Assembly: GCA_026770615.1 (NCBI GenBank)
Contig: MU631538.1
Coordinates: forward strand, 129,589 to 141,251
Reading direction: 5' to 3'
Source: Pavlovales sp. CCMP2436
Taxonomy: Eukaryota > Haptophyta > Pavlovophyceae > Pavlovales
DNA length: 11,663 nt
Shown: piece by piece, positions 954 through 10,458 of the stretch
Layout: each line of letters opens with the position of its first letter
How positions within the stretch are numbered: the first letter of the stretch is position 1
Notes under the pieces: generated by a model
What the model saw: only the letters and a program-made list of their open reading frames with translations
Told to the model about the DNA's origin: nothing
Database searches by the model: none
Translations under genes and position numbers: made by a program

Positions 954-2135
954 CTACTCGTCTCGTCGGTGCTTGCCATGACTCGGCGCAGGGTCGCCGT
1001 CGGCGCACAGCCGGCTCGACGGGGGTGCAGTGCAGTAGACAGCCATCAGCGCGTCGAAGGCGCTCAGTTGCTCGGTCGCCTCGGAGGGCCAGCTCGGCGG
1101 CTGCATCTCTGCCGGAGAAAGCAGTAGCAGCTCAGTCCTGGCCACACTCCTTGCCAGGTGACCCAGCAACGGCTGCGCTAACGCCAGGATTGGCTGCTGC
1201 TGCTGCGCCGGAGCGAAAAATGGGGCGAGGGCGGGCGGGGCGGAGAGCGAGCCGGAAGCGGACGGAGCGGCACCCGCTCCCGGCGACGCAGATGCTGTAG
1301 CGATCCCTAGCCCCGCGCACGCAGGCGCCACCGCCTCGCCATCACCTCTGATCAGGGCGTGCGCGCGCTTGCACACCGAGAGGTGCGGGCCAAAGCCGCG
1401 CGGCGCCATCGCGCGCGCGCAGCCGGGGCACACGCATCGGCCGCCTAGGGCTGTCTCGCGCGTGCGGCATTCCTCGAGCTTGGCACGCAGCTCGAACTCG
1501 CTTTTGCTGAGGAGCGCCAGCTTGGGCCTCTGTCTGCGCAACTCCTCCTCGCGACCGGGGTGCGCCTCGTGCAGCGCCAGGTGACTCTTGAGTCGCTTCT
1601 TGTGCCGCAGCGCCTTGCCGCAGCCCGGGTGTGGGCACACGAAGCGCTCGCCCGAGTGGGCCACGCGCACGTGTGAGTCGAGATTGGACTGCTTGGTAAA
1701 GACTTTGCAGCAACCCGCCTGCGCGCACGCGAAGCTTGGGACTAGCCGCGCCACCGGGATGACGAGGCCCGCCGCCGCGCCCGGCGCGCCGGCAGCCTCG
1801 CGAGGGGGACAGGCGCCCCCCTGGCGTGGTTGCACGTGGTTGACGTTGACCAGCGGAACCCCCCTGGGCTCGAGCTCCAGATCCTTCGCGGCCGCCCGCT
1901 CCCAATGCGCTCGGGGCATGAGCTTCTCGACCCCCGTCGGGCGCATGGCCGTCTGGAAGACGATCGCGCCCCGCAGCCGCGGCGGCTCGTCCTCCCTGCC
2001 GCACACGTGCCGCGACACCTCGCGCGGGTCCACCAGCCGCCGCGCGAGCTTGCAGTCCGCCTCAGTGCAGTCACTGAGCGTGTAGGTCCACGCGCGGCCA
2101 GGCCGCGTGGCCGGGTCGCGACCCGCCCAGTCCAT
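954..2135 (-). CDS. CRESS Rep-like N-terminus fused to C2H2/C2HC zinc fingers
   Basis: A 393-residue ORF. The frame extends upstream to 2159, but only from a GTG; the first ATG is at 2135, so that start is used. Residues 15-85 resemble the beginning of the HUH endonuclease domain of circular Rep-encoding ssDNA (CRESS) virus and plasmid Reps: a motif-I-like WTYTLSD at 16-22, a GREDEPPRLRGAIVF block at 46-60 in the place of the histidine motif II, and MPRAHWERA at 73-81. Two C2H2 fingers follow, both C-x4-C-x12 type (C137/C142/H155/H160 and C167/C172/H185/H189), joined by SGER, a TGEKP-like linker. A charged, probably coiled-coil stretch (about 195-228) leads to a C2HC finger (C236/C239/H251/C255). 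The tail is Ala/Pro/Ser-rich with a QQQQ run. Fingers suggest nuclear DNA or RNA binding. Motif II has Arg in place of His, no YxxK tyrosine motif follows, and the Rep helicase domain is absent, so nicking activity is not expected. The Rep match is by eye. Confidence 0.8.
   Translation of the reverse strand: MDWAGRDPATRPGRAWTYTLSDCTEADCKLARRLVDPREVSRHVCGREDEPPRLRGAIVFQTAMRPTGVEKLMPRAHWERAAAKDLELEPRGVPLVNVNHVQPRQGGACPPREAAGAPGAAAGLVIPVARLVPSFACAQAGCCKVFTKQSNLDSHVRVAHSGERFVCPHPGCGKALRHKKRLKSHLALHEAHPGREEELRRQRPKLALLSKSEFELRAKLEECRTRETALGGRCVCPGCARAMAPRGFGPHLSVCKRAHALIRGDGEAVAPACAGLGIATASASPGAGAAPSASGSLSAPPALAPFFAPAQQQQPILALAQPLLGHLARSVARTELLLLSPAEMQPPSWPSEATEQLSAFDALMAVYCTAPPSSRLCADGDPAPSHGKHRRDE
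1881..2093 (-). other. Degenerate Rep endonuclease-like segment within the gene
   Basis: This marks residues 15-85 of the fusion protein. What is seen: an aromatic-x-x-T-L motif, about 30 residues of spacer, G-R-E, then P-P-R-L-R-G followed by a hydrophobic strand ending in F, then P-R-A-H-W-E. This order and spacing are those of motif I, motif II and the conserved strand after it in CRESS Reps. What is missing: the motif II histidine (Arg at residue 53) and any downstream tyrosine motif; the sequence after residue 90 is Pro/Gly/Ala-rich linker. The segment is read in frame with the fingers, with no stop. It is either an endogenous viral or plasmid fragment that became part of a host gene, or a decaying copy. 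Confidence 0.72.
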
Positions 2136-4870: not shown

Positions 4871-5263
4871 CGCACCGGGCAGCGGCGAGGCGCGGAGGCA
4901 CTCGGCCCGAGCTGCGAGAGGCGAGGCTCGCAGAGGAGCTGCGAGCGGCGAGCGGGAGGAAGCGGCTGCAAGAGGCGAGGTGCGGAAGAGTCCCACGCGA
5001 CGAGGCGGTGGCTGCCGAGGCGAAAGGGGCGGCGGCCGAGCCTGCGAGGGGGCAGAGAGAGGCTGCCGAGCGAGGCGCCGGCTTTGAAAACAGACAAGCG
5101 CGAGCTCAGAGCATCATGCCCCTACCGGCAAGCGCGCACTGACCCGGGGATGGCGCCGCATGCTGCAGGTTCCACCGACGGCAGCCTGGTAACGCGCACG
5201 CGGGGCTGCCGAGCCTATTTCCCGAACTGCGCGCCCAGCAGCGGGCGGTGGTCGATTCTGCTC
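4871..5263. other. Upstream region of the Sel1-MYND gene
   Basis: About 4880-5000 contains imperfect short repeats built on GAGGCGAGG and GAGCTGCGAG; on the minus strand they read as SPLAA-type peptide. The region probably holds the 5' untranslated leader and promoter of the Sel1-MYND gene. No TATA box or other recognisable promoter element is visible. The right limit is the MITE at 5264. Confidence 0.4.
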
Positions 5264-5420
5264 TACAGGGGATCGCGGGCAATAAGAACGGCGGGTTTTG
5301 AGGCTGAGGATGAAATTCTTAGCAAATTACATACAAACAATGGTTAAAATTACGATCGGGCTAAAAAACGAGGATCAGTTTCTTAATACGACGGTTTCTT
5401 ATTGCCCGCGATCCCCTGTA
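5264..5420 (-). mobile_element. MITE copy 1, intact ends, TA-flanked
   Basis: The body (5266-5418, 153 bp) starts CAGGGGATCGCGGGC and ends with its complement. The terminal inverted repeats match over 23 bp, through the AATAAGAA stretch. TA dinucleotides at 5264-5265 and 5419-5420 fit the TA target duplication of Tc1/mariner-type elements. There is no coding capacity. Inside are ATTACATACAAACAATGG and CTTAGCAAAT strings shared with the other copies but in the opposite orientation, so this copy is inverted relative to copies 2 and 3. Family assignment rests on the TA duplication and terminal repeats only. Confidence 0.88.
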
Positions 5421-5606
5421 GCAGTAAGGATCTCTGCGCGCTGACGTGGCGCCTACCAGGGTTTAGTTAAGGTACTAAGCGGCTAAAGGGGCACACTGGG
5501 CTATGTGACAAGTTAGTTTTATGTTAGTCACAGAGCGGCCACGGCAGCGTACATCCCTGGGGTTCGACAATGGCCTCGCACTTAAAATTCCTCTATCTAC
5601 CATGGG

Positions 5607-5746
5607 TACAGGGGATCGCGGGCAATAAGAAACCGTCGTGTTAAGAAACTGAGCCTCTTTTTTTGCATTGTTTGTATGTAACTTAAACAAACTTAAGAAT
5701 TGCTTGTATGTAATTTGCTAAGAAACTCAGCCTCAGCCTCAAAAAT
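5607..5746 (+). mobile_element. MITE copy 2, right end lost
   Basis: It begins TA-CAGGGGATCGCGGGC and follows copy 3 through the ACCGTCG, GAAACTGAGCCTC and TTGTATGTAA segments up to CAGCCTCAAAA near 5744. The sequence then diverges into AT-rich DNA and the right terminal repeat is absent. An internal partial duplication is visible: TTGTATGTAA occurs twice (near 5672 and 5704). The copy is therefore decayed and should not be movable even in trans. It lies 186 bp from copy 1 in opposite orientation. Confidence 0.82.
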
Positions 5747-6142: not shown

Positions 6143-6403
6143 ATATTTATGATAGGGATTCAAGCTGGCGTCTGGCTGTTCTGAATGTTGTGCTGGTCTG
6201 AGCGCTGCGTCGCCCATTGCCTGCTGCGTGCCTTAGTCGGCTGCGCTGGCTTGGGCGCCACCGCGCGTGCCGATGGATCTCCGGTAGTGTGCCCGGGCAA
6301 GGGCGTTTAGGGAGATGATCTGCTGGTTGCTGTTTGTCGTGTTCCCACGCTGGGCAGCGATCGGGGCCAGTACGCTCAAGCGCGCGAGCAGCAGCTGCGC
6401 ATG
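6143..6403 (-). repeat. Dispersed repeat copy 2 (inverted relative to copy 1)
   Basis: This is the reverse-complement partner of 30-298, with about a dozen substitutions and the 8-bp deletion. Similarity stops abruptly at 6403, where the coding frame continues on the minus strand into sequence not found in copy 1. This copy therefore keeps more of the 5' part of the element, and copy 1 is more truncated or recombined. The two form an inverted pair about 5.8 kb apart. Confidence 0.8.
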
Positions 6404-6640: not shown

Positions 6641-9366
6641 TATATACAGCTTATAAATACAACCATCGACAAGCGCATCTTCCACGCCCGTTTAGGACAC
6701 GCTTCGACCTGTACACTCAACGCGACCATCTCGGCCACGGACGGGCTACTCACCTCTCGACGTCTCAAGCAGATCTGTCCAGCTTGCGCGGAGGGTAAGG
6801 CGATCAGCTGACCTTCAACGACGCCCGTCACCAAGCTGCACAGCCCTTCGACACCGTCAGCGTCGATATCATAGGCCCCATCAACTCCCTCGAGTCCTTC
6901 CGCTCGAACGATCCATCGATGGGGTACTACTCCATGTTGTTCCTCGACCAGTTCTCCAACTACGCGTGGATCTACCAGCTCGAGACCAAGTCGCAGGCCC
7001 CCGATTTCCTCGACAAGTTTCTCGAAGACATCCAGACCTACACCGTCTCCCTCGGCTCCCTCGTTCGGCTATTTCGGCTTGACGGGGCCAAGGAGTTTGA
7101 CTCGGCACGCTGGAACGGCATCCTTCGCACCAACGGCATCGGCGGGTCCGAGATCACGCCGGCAAGGACTCCCCAGCTCAACGCGCACGCAGAGCGCTAC
7201 TTCGGCACCATCGACCGGGACGCGCGCGCACTACTCGCTCAAGCCGGCCTTCCCGACTCTTACGCCGACTCCGCCTTCCTCCACTCCGTGTACATTCGAA
7301 ACCGGCTTGTCTCAGATTTGTCGGCCGGCGTGACGCCCTATCAGCACATCCTCTGCCTCCGCCCCAACCTGTCGCACATCCGCGCCTGGGGCTCGGATGC
7401 CTGGGTCTTCGACACCCACTCGCATCTCTTCAAGCTCGACGCGCGCGCATTGTACGGCATCCTGATCGGCTACGGCGACTCGGGCCACATGATCAACGCG
7501 CCGGCTGGAGCACTCACTCGCTACACCAACGCGGCCGTGATCAAGCTCCACCCTTCTGGCAGGGTCGTCCTCAATCGGCATGTGCGGATCGATGAGAGCT
7601 CCGTTATCAACCGCATCGCGACGCGTCCACGACTTCCTCTTGGCGACCTACCTGCTCCCAAGGGCGACTCGTTGCCCGACGCCCCCGACCTGGAGTCCAT
7701 TCCCCTTGGCAACACTGCGCCGCTCGCTCTGCCGACTTCGGAACCCTCGGCGCGCACGCTCCGCTCCGCCTACAAGCAGAACATCCCGTACGTGTGCGCC
7801 CTACTCGCTCTCGTCGCCGAGTCCGACCAGCCGACGCTCAAGCAAGCTGTCTCCGGTCCACACTCGGTCGAGTGGTTCGCCTCCATCCAGTCAGAGTACG
7901 CTTCCATCGACTCAACTGGCACCTGGGTCGAGACCCCTCGGCGGCCCGGCATGAAGGTCCTCAAGACGGGCCTCGTTCTCAACCTCAAGCGCAAGTCCGA
8001 CGGCACCATTGACAAGTACAAGACTCGGTGCATCGCCAAGGGCTACGCGCAGCGCTTTGGCCTCGACTACGACGAGACGTTCTCCTCCGTCCTTCGCTAC
8101 GACTCGGCCAAGCTCATCATCGCACTCGCAGCCGCTCGCAGCGCACGCCTCTTCCACCTTGACTTCAAGACGGCGTACCTCAACGCGCCCCTCGACTACG
8201 ACATCTACGTCGACCCTCCCTACTCGTTCAAGATCAAAGGCAAGGGCGACATCGTTCTCAAACTTCACAAATCGCTCTACGGGCTCAAGCGGTCCGGCCG
8301 CAACTGGCGGCAGCTAATCGACAACTGGCTCATCGACTACGGCTTCACGCAGTCGCGCCAGGACCCGTGCGTGTACACACTTCACCATGACGACGGCCAC
8401 TTGTCGCTTGGTATCTACGTCAACGACCGCTTGATCGCCGGCTTCTCGCTCAAACCCGACGTCTGTGACAAGTTCCTCACCTCGATCACCACGGCCTTCA
8501 AGACGACGCTCAGCGACGACATTGACTCCTTCCTGTTCATGAAGCTGACGCGCTCCGACCTCGGCATCAAGGTGACCATCTCGCGCGCCATCCTCGAGCT
8601 CTTAGAGCGGACCGGCATGCTGAACGCGCACCACGTTGACACGCCGATGGCAGAAGGCCTGCACCTCAACATCTCCTCGGACTCGGAGCTCCTCGACCAA
8701 GACGGCGCCACGGAGTACCGCTCGATCGTCGGTGCGCTCATCCACATCTCGCACTTCCGCCGGATATCATGTACGCCATGGGCATGCTCACGCACTTTAT
8801 GAGCCGCCCGGCGAGCCGCACATGACCGCGGCCAAGCGCATCCTCCGCTACCTCGCTGGGACGCCCGACCTCGGCCTCAACTTCAAGGCCAAAGTCGAGC
8901 TCAACTTCAACGCCTTCGTCGACGCTGACTACGCCAACTGCATCGACACGCGCAAGTCCGTCTCCGGCTTTATCACGCAGGTAGGAGGCGGCACCGTCTC
9001 AGCCCAGCGCGAGAAGCAGAGCGTCGTCACGCTCAGCTCGACTGAGGCTGAGTACGTCGCGGTCACCTCCGTCTCCAAGGAGATCAGCGCAATGCGCCAG
9101 CTCCTCGCCGACCTCGGCTTCCCGCAAACTACTGCTACGCCCGTCGGCGAGGACAACTTTTCGTGCATCAACTTGTCCAAGAACGACATCGTGCACCGCC
9201 GGACCAAGCACGTGGACATCAAATTCCACTGGATCCGCGACCTCGTCAAGAACGGTATCATCAAGCTGTTTTTCATCAGCGGTCTCGACAACGTCGCCGA
9301 CATCATGACCAAGCCCTTGGCCCCAAGCTCTTCCTTCAACACCGCCGCACGCTCCTCGGCATGTAG
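6641..9366 (+). pseudogene. pol: Copia pol polyprotein, frameshifted
   Basis: Pieces in order: a pre-integrase zinc motif (H 6683, H 6698, C 6776, C 6785); an integrase core with the acidic triad D 6865, D 7081 and E 7192 (36 residues between the last two); a reverse transcriptase with HLDFKTAYLNA (catalytic D at 8161), SLYGLKRSGRNW, and a polymerase box at 8416-8427 reading YVND, so the first of the two aspartates is Asn; and an RNase H with FVDADYAN (from about 8915), STEAEY and TKHVDIKFHWIRD. The stop is at 9364-9366. The reading frame changes four times, near 6799-6811, 8757-8763, 8806-8812 and 9322-9330. Each change equals loss of one base, the last three in C or G runs. No in-frame nonsense codon separates these points. 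The family is normally one continuous polyprotein, so the copy as written is inactive. Confidence 0.87.
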
Positions 9367-9470
9367 ACGGTCACCATCGGTTTCTCCCTACTTAAGGGGG
9401 GGGGGGTTTCACCGACTACAAGCTCAAGCTGTACCAGTTCCTTCAACCTGAACGTGATGGCGTCCAGATT

Positions 9471-9789: not shown

Positions 9790-10285
9790 GTATCGGTCGT
9801 ACGGCCCTAGGATTCAAATGTACAGTAGCACGATTCAGAACGGCAGAATTGCATTTTACACCGGACCTGGACGCGTATGTAGCGCGCCCCCAGCGTAATT
9901 TCGACAAAAGGGCCGCCGTAGGCTTCAAGGGCCCGCAAACCACCCTCGCACCGTGGACAATTTTTGGATACAATTATTAGGTACACGCTGGCTGGACCAA
10001 CTGAAGTTGAATTTCCAGGATTAGTTTGAGCTATGTGCGTCAGCGGACCGCCAGTCAGCGAGCGCCGTCTCGCCAGCGCGCTCGTCGGCTTGACGCGCCT
10101 CTCGACGCGGCCGAGCTGCTCGTCCATCGACCGCGAGCCTACTCGCAGCTCTTAGCATCAGGCTCGGCAGCGCCACGTGCGGTCAGCCTCCTCTTCGGCG
10201 GCCCCCTGCGTGCGAAGGCCATCCCCTGCGGTGCGCTTCCAGGAGGCGCTATGCTCGCGCATTTTTAAAGCCGGCGCCAGTACTG
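9790..10285. other. Intergenic stretch, no confident gene
   Basis: Short open frames exist on both strands. The minus-strand one at 9807-10127 has a CPRC and further cysteines, but its composition is mixed and I recognise no family. The sequence is GC-rich from about 10030. It ends with TTTTTAAAG just before the third MITE. Confidence 0.4.
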
Positions 10286-10458
10286 TACAGGGGATCGCGG
10301 GCAATAAGAAACCGTCGCGTTAAGAAACTGAGCCTCGTTTTTTTGCCCTTCAATTTAGCAATTTTAACCAAAATTTAACCATTGTTTGTATGTAATTTGC
10401 TAAGAAACTCAGCCTCAGCCCCAAAACCCGCCGTTCTTATTGCCCGCGATCCCCTGTA
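10286..10458 (+). mobile_element. MITE copy 3, intact ends, TA-flanked
   Basis: The body (10288-10456, 169 bp) begins CAGGGGATCGCGGGC and ends with its complement, between TA at 10286-10287 and TA at 10457-10458. Its left subterminal part (ACCGTCGCGTTAAGAAACTG) matches copy 2 and its right part matches the left end of copy 1, so it is the most complete reference for the family here. It has no ORF. A short direct or inverted motif built on AGAAACT(C/G)AG occurs near both ends. Confidence 0.9.

Follow-up and report, generated by a model that had tools for sequence, protein, structure and literature searches.

We analysed a window of 11,663 nucleotides from Pavlovales sp. CCMP2436, meaning the whole stretch of DNA shown above, which comes from a 217-kb contig within a 119-Mb genome. 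The host is likely an alga, and 10 matches to the chlorophyll-binding family at E<=1e-10 were found in the same genome. On its minus strand the window encodes a 393-aa protein, here called the fusion protein, in which a domain apparently related to the replication initiator (Rep) of circular Rep-encoding single-stranded (CRESS) DNA viruses is followed, in the same frame, by three zinc fingers (Table 1). The open reading frame (ORF) runs from an ATG at 2135, with G at both -3 and +4, down to 954, and stays open for 18 codons upstream of this ATG (411 aa open); frame 1 of the plus strand over 954-2135 contains several stops. A first-pass annotation, made from the letters alone, had placed Rep-like motifs at residues 15-85, and those that it cited are present: YTLSD (18-22), GRE (46-48), PPRLRG (51-56), VF (59-60) and PRAHWE (74-79). 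The two C2H2 fingers and the C2HC finger that it described further along were found with all their ligands.

Sequence comparisons and a structure model support an origin of the N-terminal domain from the HUH endonuclease domain of a CRESS-virus Rep. A profile of 114 other Reps gave the 393-aa protein a score of 32.9 bits over residues 10-84 (E 2.3e-12, single comparison); among 20,000 shuffles of residues 1-125, none scored above 10.5 bits. From the 122 proteins at hand, P0001, which is the fusion protein itself, and five Reps without the HLQ string (P0030, P0058, P0062, P0096 and P0102) had been left out, and for this second profile P0002 and P0003 were omitted as well, leaving mostly environmental proteins. 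Within the same genome the domain matched Rep copies at C35 and C83 with 40% and 41% identity (E 5e-10 and 1e-9 genome-wide, among the matches listed), and the reverse search with an endogenous Rep returned only these two copies and the fusion gene (E 6e-11). Residues 21-120 of P0003 matched the fusion protein at 46% (E 2e-15), and the blocks LVxxxEVxRHVCG and VNVN are common to the fusion protein and the CRESS Reps L002, L003 and P0003. The predicted structure, from a model built with a Rep alignment, has an HUH fold and matches the Rep of porcine circovirus 2 (PCV2). Geminivirus Reps ranked below circovirus Reps in comparisons of this fold, and Gemini_AL1 (PF00799) gave no match at E<=10 in Pfam searches in which Viral_Rep (PF02407) failed too. 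The Rep origin first proposed is thus borne out by the profile, the endogenous copies, P0003 and the predicted fold.

The match is longer than residues 15-85, continuing to about residues 103-108. It runs on through motif III, where KDLELEPRGVPLVNVNH of the fusion protein aligns with KDFSYELKGEVVVNVNH of the Rep fragment C39, at a score that 0 of 5000 shuffles reached, and with KDFSYELKGDVIVNVNN of P0003 (1 of 5000 shuffles reaching the score), so that, by alignment, the domain covers approximately residues 10-108, the whole HUH unit. Its signature residues are substituted: SD stands in place of NN, RLR in place of HLQ, and L and R occupy the positions of Y and K. None of the three motifs of an active rolling-circle Rep, namely motif I (FT/YT-[IL]-N-N), motif II (HLQ/HUH) and motif III (Tyr and Lys), is present. 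Among 121 relatives, a set biased towards the C35 copy as it consists of that copy or of proteins found through words shared with it, all 121 carry T[IL]NN, 116 carry HLQ (108 by a stricter pattern) and 112 carry Y..K. In Rep the HLQ residues bind metal and the Tyr is catalytic. As all three motif signatures are lost, nicking activity is, judging from the sequence, very unlikely. We found no Pfam helicase match in the 393-aa protein that would correspond to the superfamily 3 (SF3) helicase domain after the HUH domain. A tblastn search of the window with P0003 matched only P0003 residues 17-121, and one with P0007 matched residues 9-73 together with an 18-residue stretch on an unrelated strand (E 0.70).

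The finger module has close relatives elsewhere. Residues 134-264 are 63% identical over 131 residues to P0123 and P0124, two proteins from environmental contigs in which both C2H2 fingers and the C2HC finger are conserved and no Rep domain is present. The C2H2 fingers show C-x2-4-C-x12-H-x3-5-H spacing as well as homology, with a Pfam zf-C2H2 match at E 0.006 that lies below the curated cut-off, and in P0123 and P0124 zf-C2HC_2 likewise matches below its cut-off. P0123 starts with MAPGA directly before the first finger, and P0124 starts 56 residues before it, again with no Rep domain. A genome search with P0123, in which match counts are lower bounds, gave the fusion gene as by far the best match (E 1.6e-50), followed by a match of the fingers alone (E 2.4e-8), and it detected one broken stretch at C80 (residues 5-144, 32%, E 0.0099); a search of IMG/VR with P0123 returned nothing. 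Since the fingers have close relatives without a Rep domain, capture by a host gene, as first suggested, fits, and the gain of a Rep domain by a host finger gene would be the simplest polarity on the basis of two proteins from short contigs.

We identified Rep pieces in the same genome at C35 (L002), C83 (L003), C39 (L026) and C493 (L040), the last at E 4e-4. Both the C35 and the C83 copy show the usual Rep N-terminus, containing YTINNY and GTPHLQG, and lie above the Viral_Rep cut-off, at 32.7 and 31.9 bits. The protein most similar to the C35 copy is P0003 (68%, among the best 120 of 138), from Pavlovales sp. CCMP2436; after it, the listed relatives all carry Viral_Rep, and some are named as Reps of circoviruses or other CRESS viruses. 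P0003 keeps its motifs and is encoded on a large contig (243 kb) of Pavlovales sp. CCMP2436, a haptophyte, which suggests that its CRESS lineage is associated with haptophytes.

A second ORF has 17 matches genome-wide and is oriented divergently to Rep at C35, C83 and C493. At C83 its pieces flank Rep on both sides, the pattern expected from a tandem or rearranged insertion. At C493 a helicase-like ORF containing GPTGTGKT, in which PF00910 falls below its cut-off, stands beside an ORF with a basic, Arg/Lys-rich N-terminus. No Pfam family matched the second ORF over its cut-off, and its structure model is unreliable (predicted local distance difference test, pLDDT, 35); it is capsid-like only in its divergent position at C35, C83 and C493 and in the Arg/Lys-rich N-terminus at C493. 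Searches of IMG/VR by sequence patterns gave nothing for the N-terminal domain of the fusion protein, the L003 Rep, the second ORF or the Rep alignment. Because the same genome holds copies that match Viral_Rep next to a divergently oriented second ORF, the donor looks viral; of the two sources originally considered, a virus seems likelier than a plasmid.

Table 1. Features of the window and their positions.
Feature	Residues	Position	Strand	Remarks
393-aa ORF, Rep HUH domain plus three zinc fingers		954..2135	(-)	ATG 2135, stop 954-956
Putative CRESS Rep endonuclease (HUH) domain	10-108	1812..2108	(-)	Sequence homology and predicted fold
Motif I position, YTLSDC; YTINNY in algal relatives	18-23	2067..2084	(-)	Alignment to relatives
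Motif II position, R53-L54-R55; HLQ in relatives	53-55	1971..1979	(-)	Alignment to relatives
Motif III position, L88-E89-P90-R91; Y-x-x-K in relatives (YELK in P0003 and C39)	88-91	1863..1874	(-)	Shuffle-tested alignment
Pro/Ala/Gly-rich linker	109-133	1737..1811	(-)	
Sole candidate splice acceptor between codons 84 and 136		1797..1798	(-)	Pyrimidine-rich AG, 12/15; consensus match only
Three-finger host module	134-264	1344..1736	(-)	63% identity to P0123 and P0124
C2H2 finger 1, ligands C137/C142/H155/H160	135-160	1656..1733	(-)	
C2H2 finger 2, ligands C167/C172/H185/H189	165-189	1569..1643	(-)	
C2HC finger, ligands C236/C239/H251/C255	236-255	1371..1430	(-)	Kept in P0123 and P0124
Low-complexity C-terminal tail	265-393	957..1343	(-)	Little conservation in P0123 or P0124
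Sel1-repeat protein, C-terminal MYND finger, 436 aa		3686-4996	(-)	Neighbour of fusion gene
Copia-type retrotransposon remnant, RVT_2		6919-9451	(+)	Neighbour of fusion gene; overlapping frames 6919-8802 and 8636-9451
Inverted copies of a ~265-base sequence		30-298 and 6143-6403		96-97% alike
Inverted repeats resembling miniature inverted-repeat transposable elements (MITE-like)		5263-5420, 5606-5744, 10285-10458		TACAGGGGATCGCGGGCAATAAGAA or its complement at both ends or at one

Around the fusion gene, we found no remnant of the remaining Rep or of the second viral ORF, save for matches of 13 and 18 residues at E ~0.7. A peptide string nearly identical to one in the ~265-base inverted copies also occurs in L026 (C39), so that this sequence looks like a dispersed repeat.

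Several features of the DNA, the G at -3 and +4 of the ATG among them, speak for the two parts forming one gene. Met is absent between residues 73 and 243, so that an unspliced transcript would yield the fingers only together with some of the Rep domain. The GC content of the Rep part by codon position is 0.75/0.55/0.91 (positions 2 and 3 compared, 59 against 98 of 108, p 2e-9), which is a signature of coding sequence. When neutral decay of L003 was simulated 4000 times, with identity matched and the frame required to stay open, 3998 of the outcomes scored lower than the Rep part, whose Rep profile score is 36.8 bits (residues 4-84); the 11-19 of 2000 decays per run that lacked a reported score were set to -10. 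The open frame itself was considered as evidence for a gene and dropped as weak, since a fragment decaying neutrally at GC 0.7 has P ~0.2 of remaining without stops. Separately, the 393-aa protein is also recorded in a protein set from a single contig of 1283 bases, barely exceeding the frame; this may be either a transcript or a short contig of genomic DNA, and if it is a transcript, expression of the gene would be shown.

We consider it probable, with modest confidence, that the product is a nuclear DNA-binding factor, expressed as one protein, in which a dead HUH domain serves as a second binding or self-association surface. An HUH endonuclease domain would have been joined in frame to the 5' end of a host three-finger gene, and would stem from the Rep of a CRESS-DNA virus whose kind is represented in this genome by endogenous copies as well. 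This endonuclease would have lost its catalytic residues while retaining its fold, with the viral helicase domain absent. The fingers would hold double-stranded DNA, and the dead domain would add a second surface for nucleic-acid binding or self-association, much as papillomavirus E1 and polyomavirus T antigen use HUH-like origin-binding domains that do not nick. Homology, predicted fold, motif loss, the in-frame junction and the occurrence of the finger module elsewhere without Rep were computed; expression as one protein, selection after capture and DNA binding through both parts we infer. Reuse of the DNA-binding surface of Rep, which the first-pass annotation had raised, is plausible.

A number of observations weigh against this reading. 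Direct tests for the Rep match fail, and it is detectable only through relatives and the profiles made from them: at E<=10, no Rep family in Pfam matched the 393-aa protein as a whole or three N-terminal pieces (1-111, 12-94 and 17-86), a negative outcome for the direct profile test that the first-pass annotation had suggested, and a sequence search of the PDB with residues 1-111 gave 0 matches. The Viral_Rep model, run over the whole genome, matched the C35 and C83 copies (2 matches) and not the fusion protein. The Rep alignment used for the structure model favours a Rep fold. In a tree of 67 rows, comprising 64 of P0003-P0069 (three without HLQ dropped) and three from the same genome, the fusion protein groups with three algal Reps on a long branch (1.05) with weak support (87/59). 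No orthologue of the fusion was found in a set of 5.8 billion proteins (349 candidates scored, 0.55-1.75x length), where residues 1-110 retrieved only the 393-aa protein itself at E<=0.1; prokaryote contigs gave nothing for the N-terminal domain, which is uninformative for a eukaryotic gene. The contigs of P0123 and P0124 are short (up to 5416 and 3140 bases), so that an upstream exon is possible there. The decay simulations take an endogenous copy of today as their starting point in place of the true ancestor. The dN/dS values, 0.51/1.12 over 77 codons against L003 and 0.42/0.72 over 63 codons against L002, lie only moderately below 1, are not assignable to the time after capture, and may reflect the viral past.

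In a different explanation, an endogenous Rep fragment lies by chance in frame upstream of a finger gene and is never made as a folded domain, the finger transcript starting in another exon spliced near 1797-1798 or within the fragment. One AG preceded by at least 11 pyrimidines in 15 does lie between the two parts, a consensus match and not evidence of splicing. The fusion is known from DNA sequence alone, open frames are cheap at this GC content, and P0123 begins right before the fingers. Against this, the domain ends near its natural boundary with the frame kept for ~99 codons, the Rep part carries the coding signature in its codon positions, no start codon is available between residue 73 and the fingers, and the profile score is higher than in nearly all simulated decays, although the constraint that it reflects may date from the viral past. 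We regard such a neighbouring fossil as unlikely, though far from negligible.

Bolder than a DNA-binding host factor, and in our judgement improbable, is the proposal of an antiviral decoy or virus-derived immunity factor, in which the dead Rep domain would target CRESS viruses of a related kind, or their endogenous copies, by occupying their origins or by binding their Rep and poisoning its assemblies, and a repressor tethered by the fingers would block viral replication. The presence of several related endogenous elements in the same genome indicates that such viruses met this lineage, and the loss of the signature residues with apparent retention of the fold also speaks for a decoy. However, the patterns used found no exogenous relative in IMG/VR, and identity to the endogenous Reps is only ~40%, which makes shared origin recognition doubtful. 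Finally, a chance likeness of a GC-rich N-terminus to Rep motifs, which the negative direct tests in Pfam and the PDB would allow, is contradicted by the sequence statistics, including the 20,000 shuffles and the reciprocal matches, and has practically no probability left.

The DNA-binding factor that we favour can be set beside several known systems. It shares the homologous HUH domain at residues 10-108 with CRESS-DNA virus Reps (Viral_Rep PF02407 plus helicase PF00910; L002, L003 and P0003), and differs from them in lacking the residues of motifs I, II and III and the helicase, with three zinc fingers instead. The RepHel protein of Helitrons combines a two-tyrosine HUH domain with a Pif1-type helicase that comes after it; the best matches of the domain studied here are CRESS Reps. 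In Camellia, an endogenous geminiviral rep is transcribed together with HSP70 and some of its sites are under purifying selection (PMC7758297). This is likewise an endogenous CRESS-type rep combined with a host gene, but it concerns a plant, a geminiviral donor and two genes on one transcript, and a dead domain is not mentioned in the portion of that paper available to us. In yams, endogenous geminiviral Rep has been kept by selection after integration, with canonical motifs in 21 of 29 uninterrupted copies (PMC5014472); there Rep stands alone, and the accessible part of the source mentions no fused host domain. Endogenous Reps, some of them expressed, occur in many eukaryotes including a green alga, according to the consulted part of a further report (PMC3198968). 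Among the open-licence papers listed, by their titles and abstract openings, we found no description of a Rep domain joined to zinc fingers.

Endogenous Rep genes, some transcribed or under selection, were already known. In the case described here, none of the three motif signatures of a Rep HUH domain is left, the fold is apparently kept, and the domain stands in frame with host zinc fingers. If the reading is true, it would show concretely how a viral nickase can be converted into a module for DNA binding, and related copies with their motifs kept in the same genome make this claim testable by comparison.
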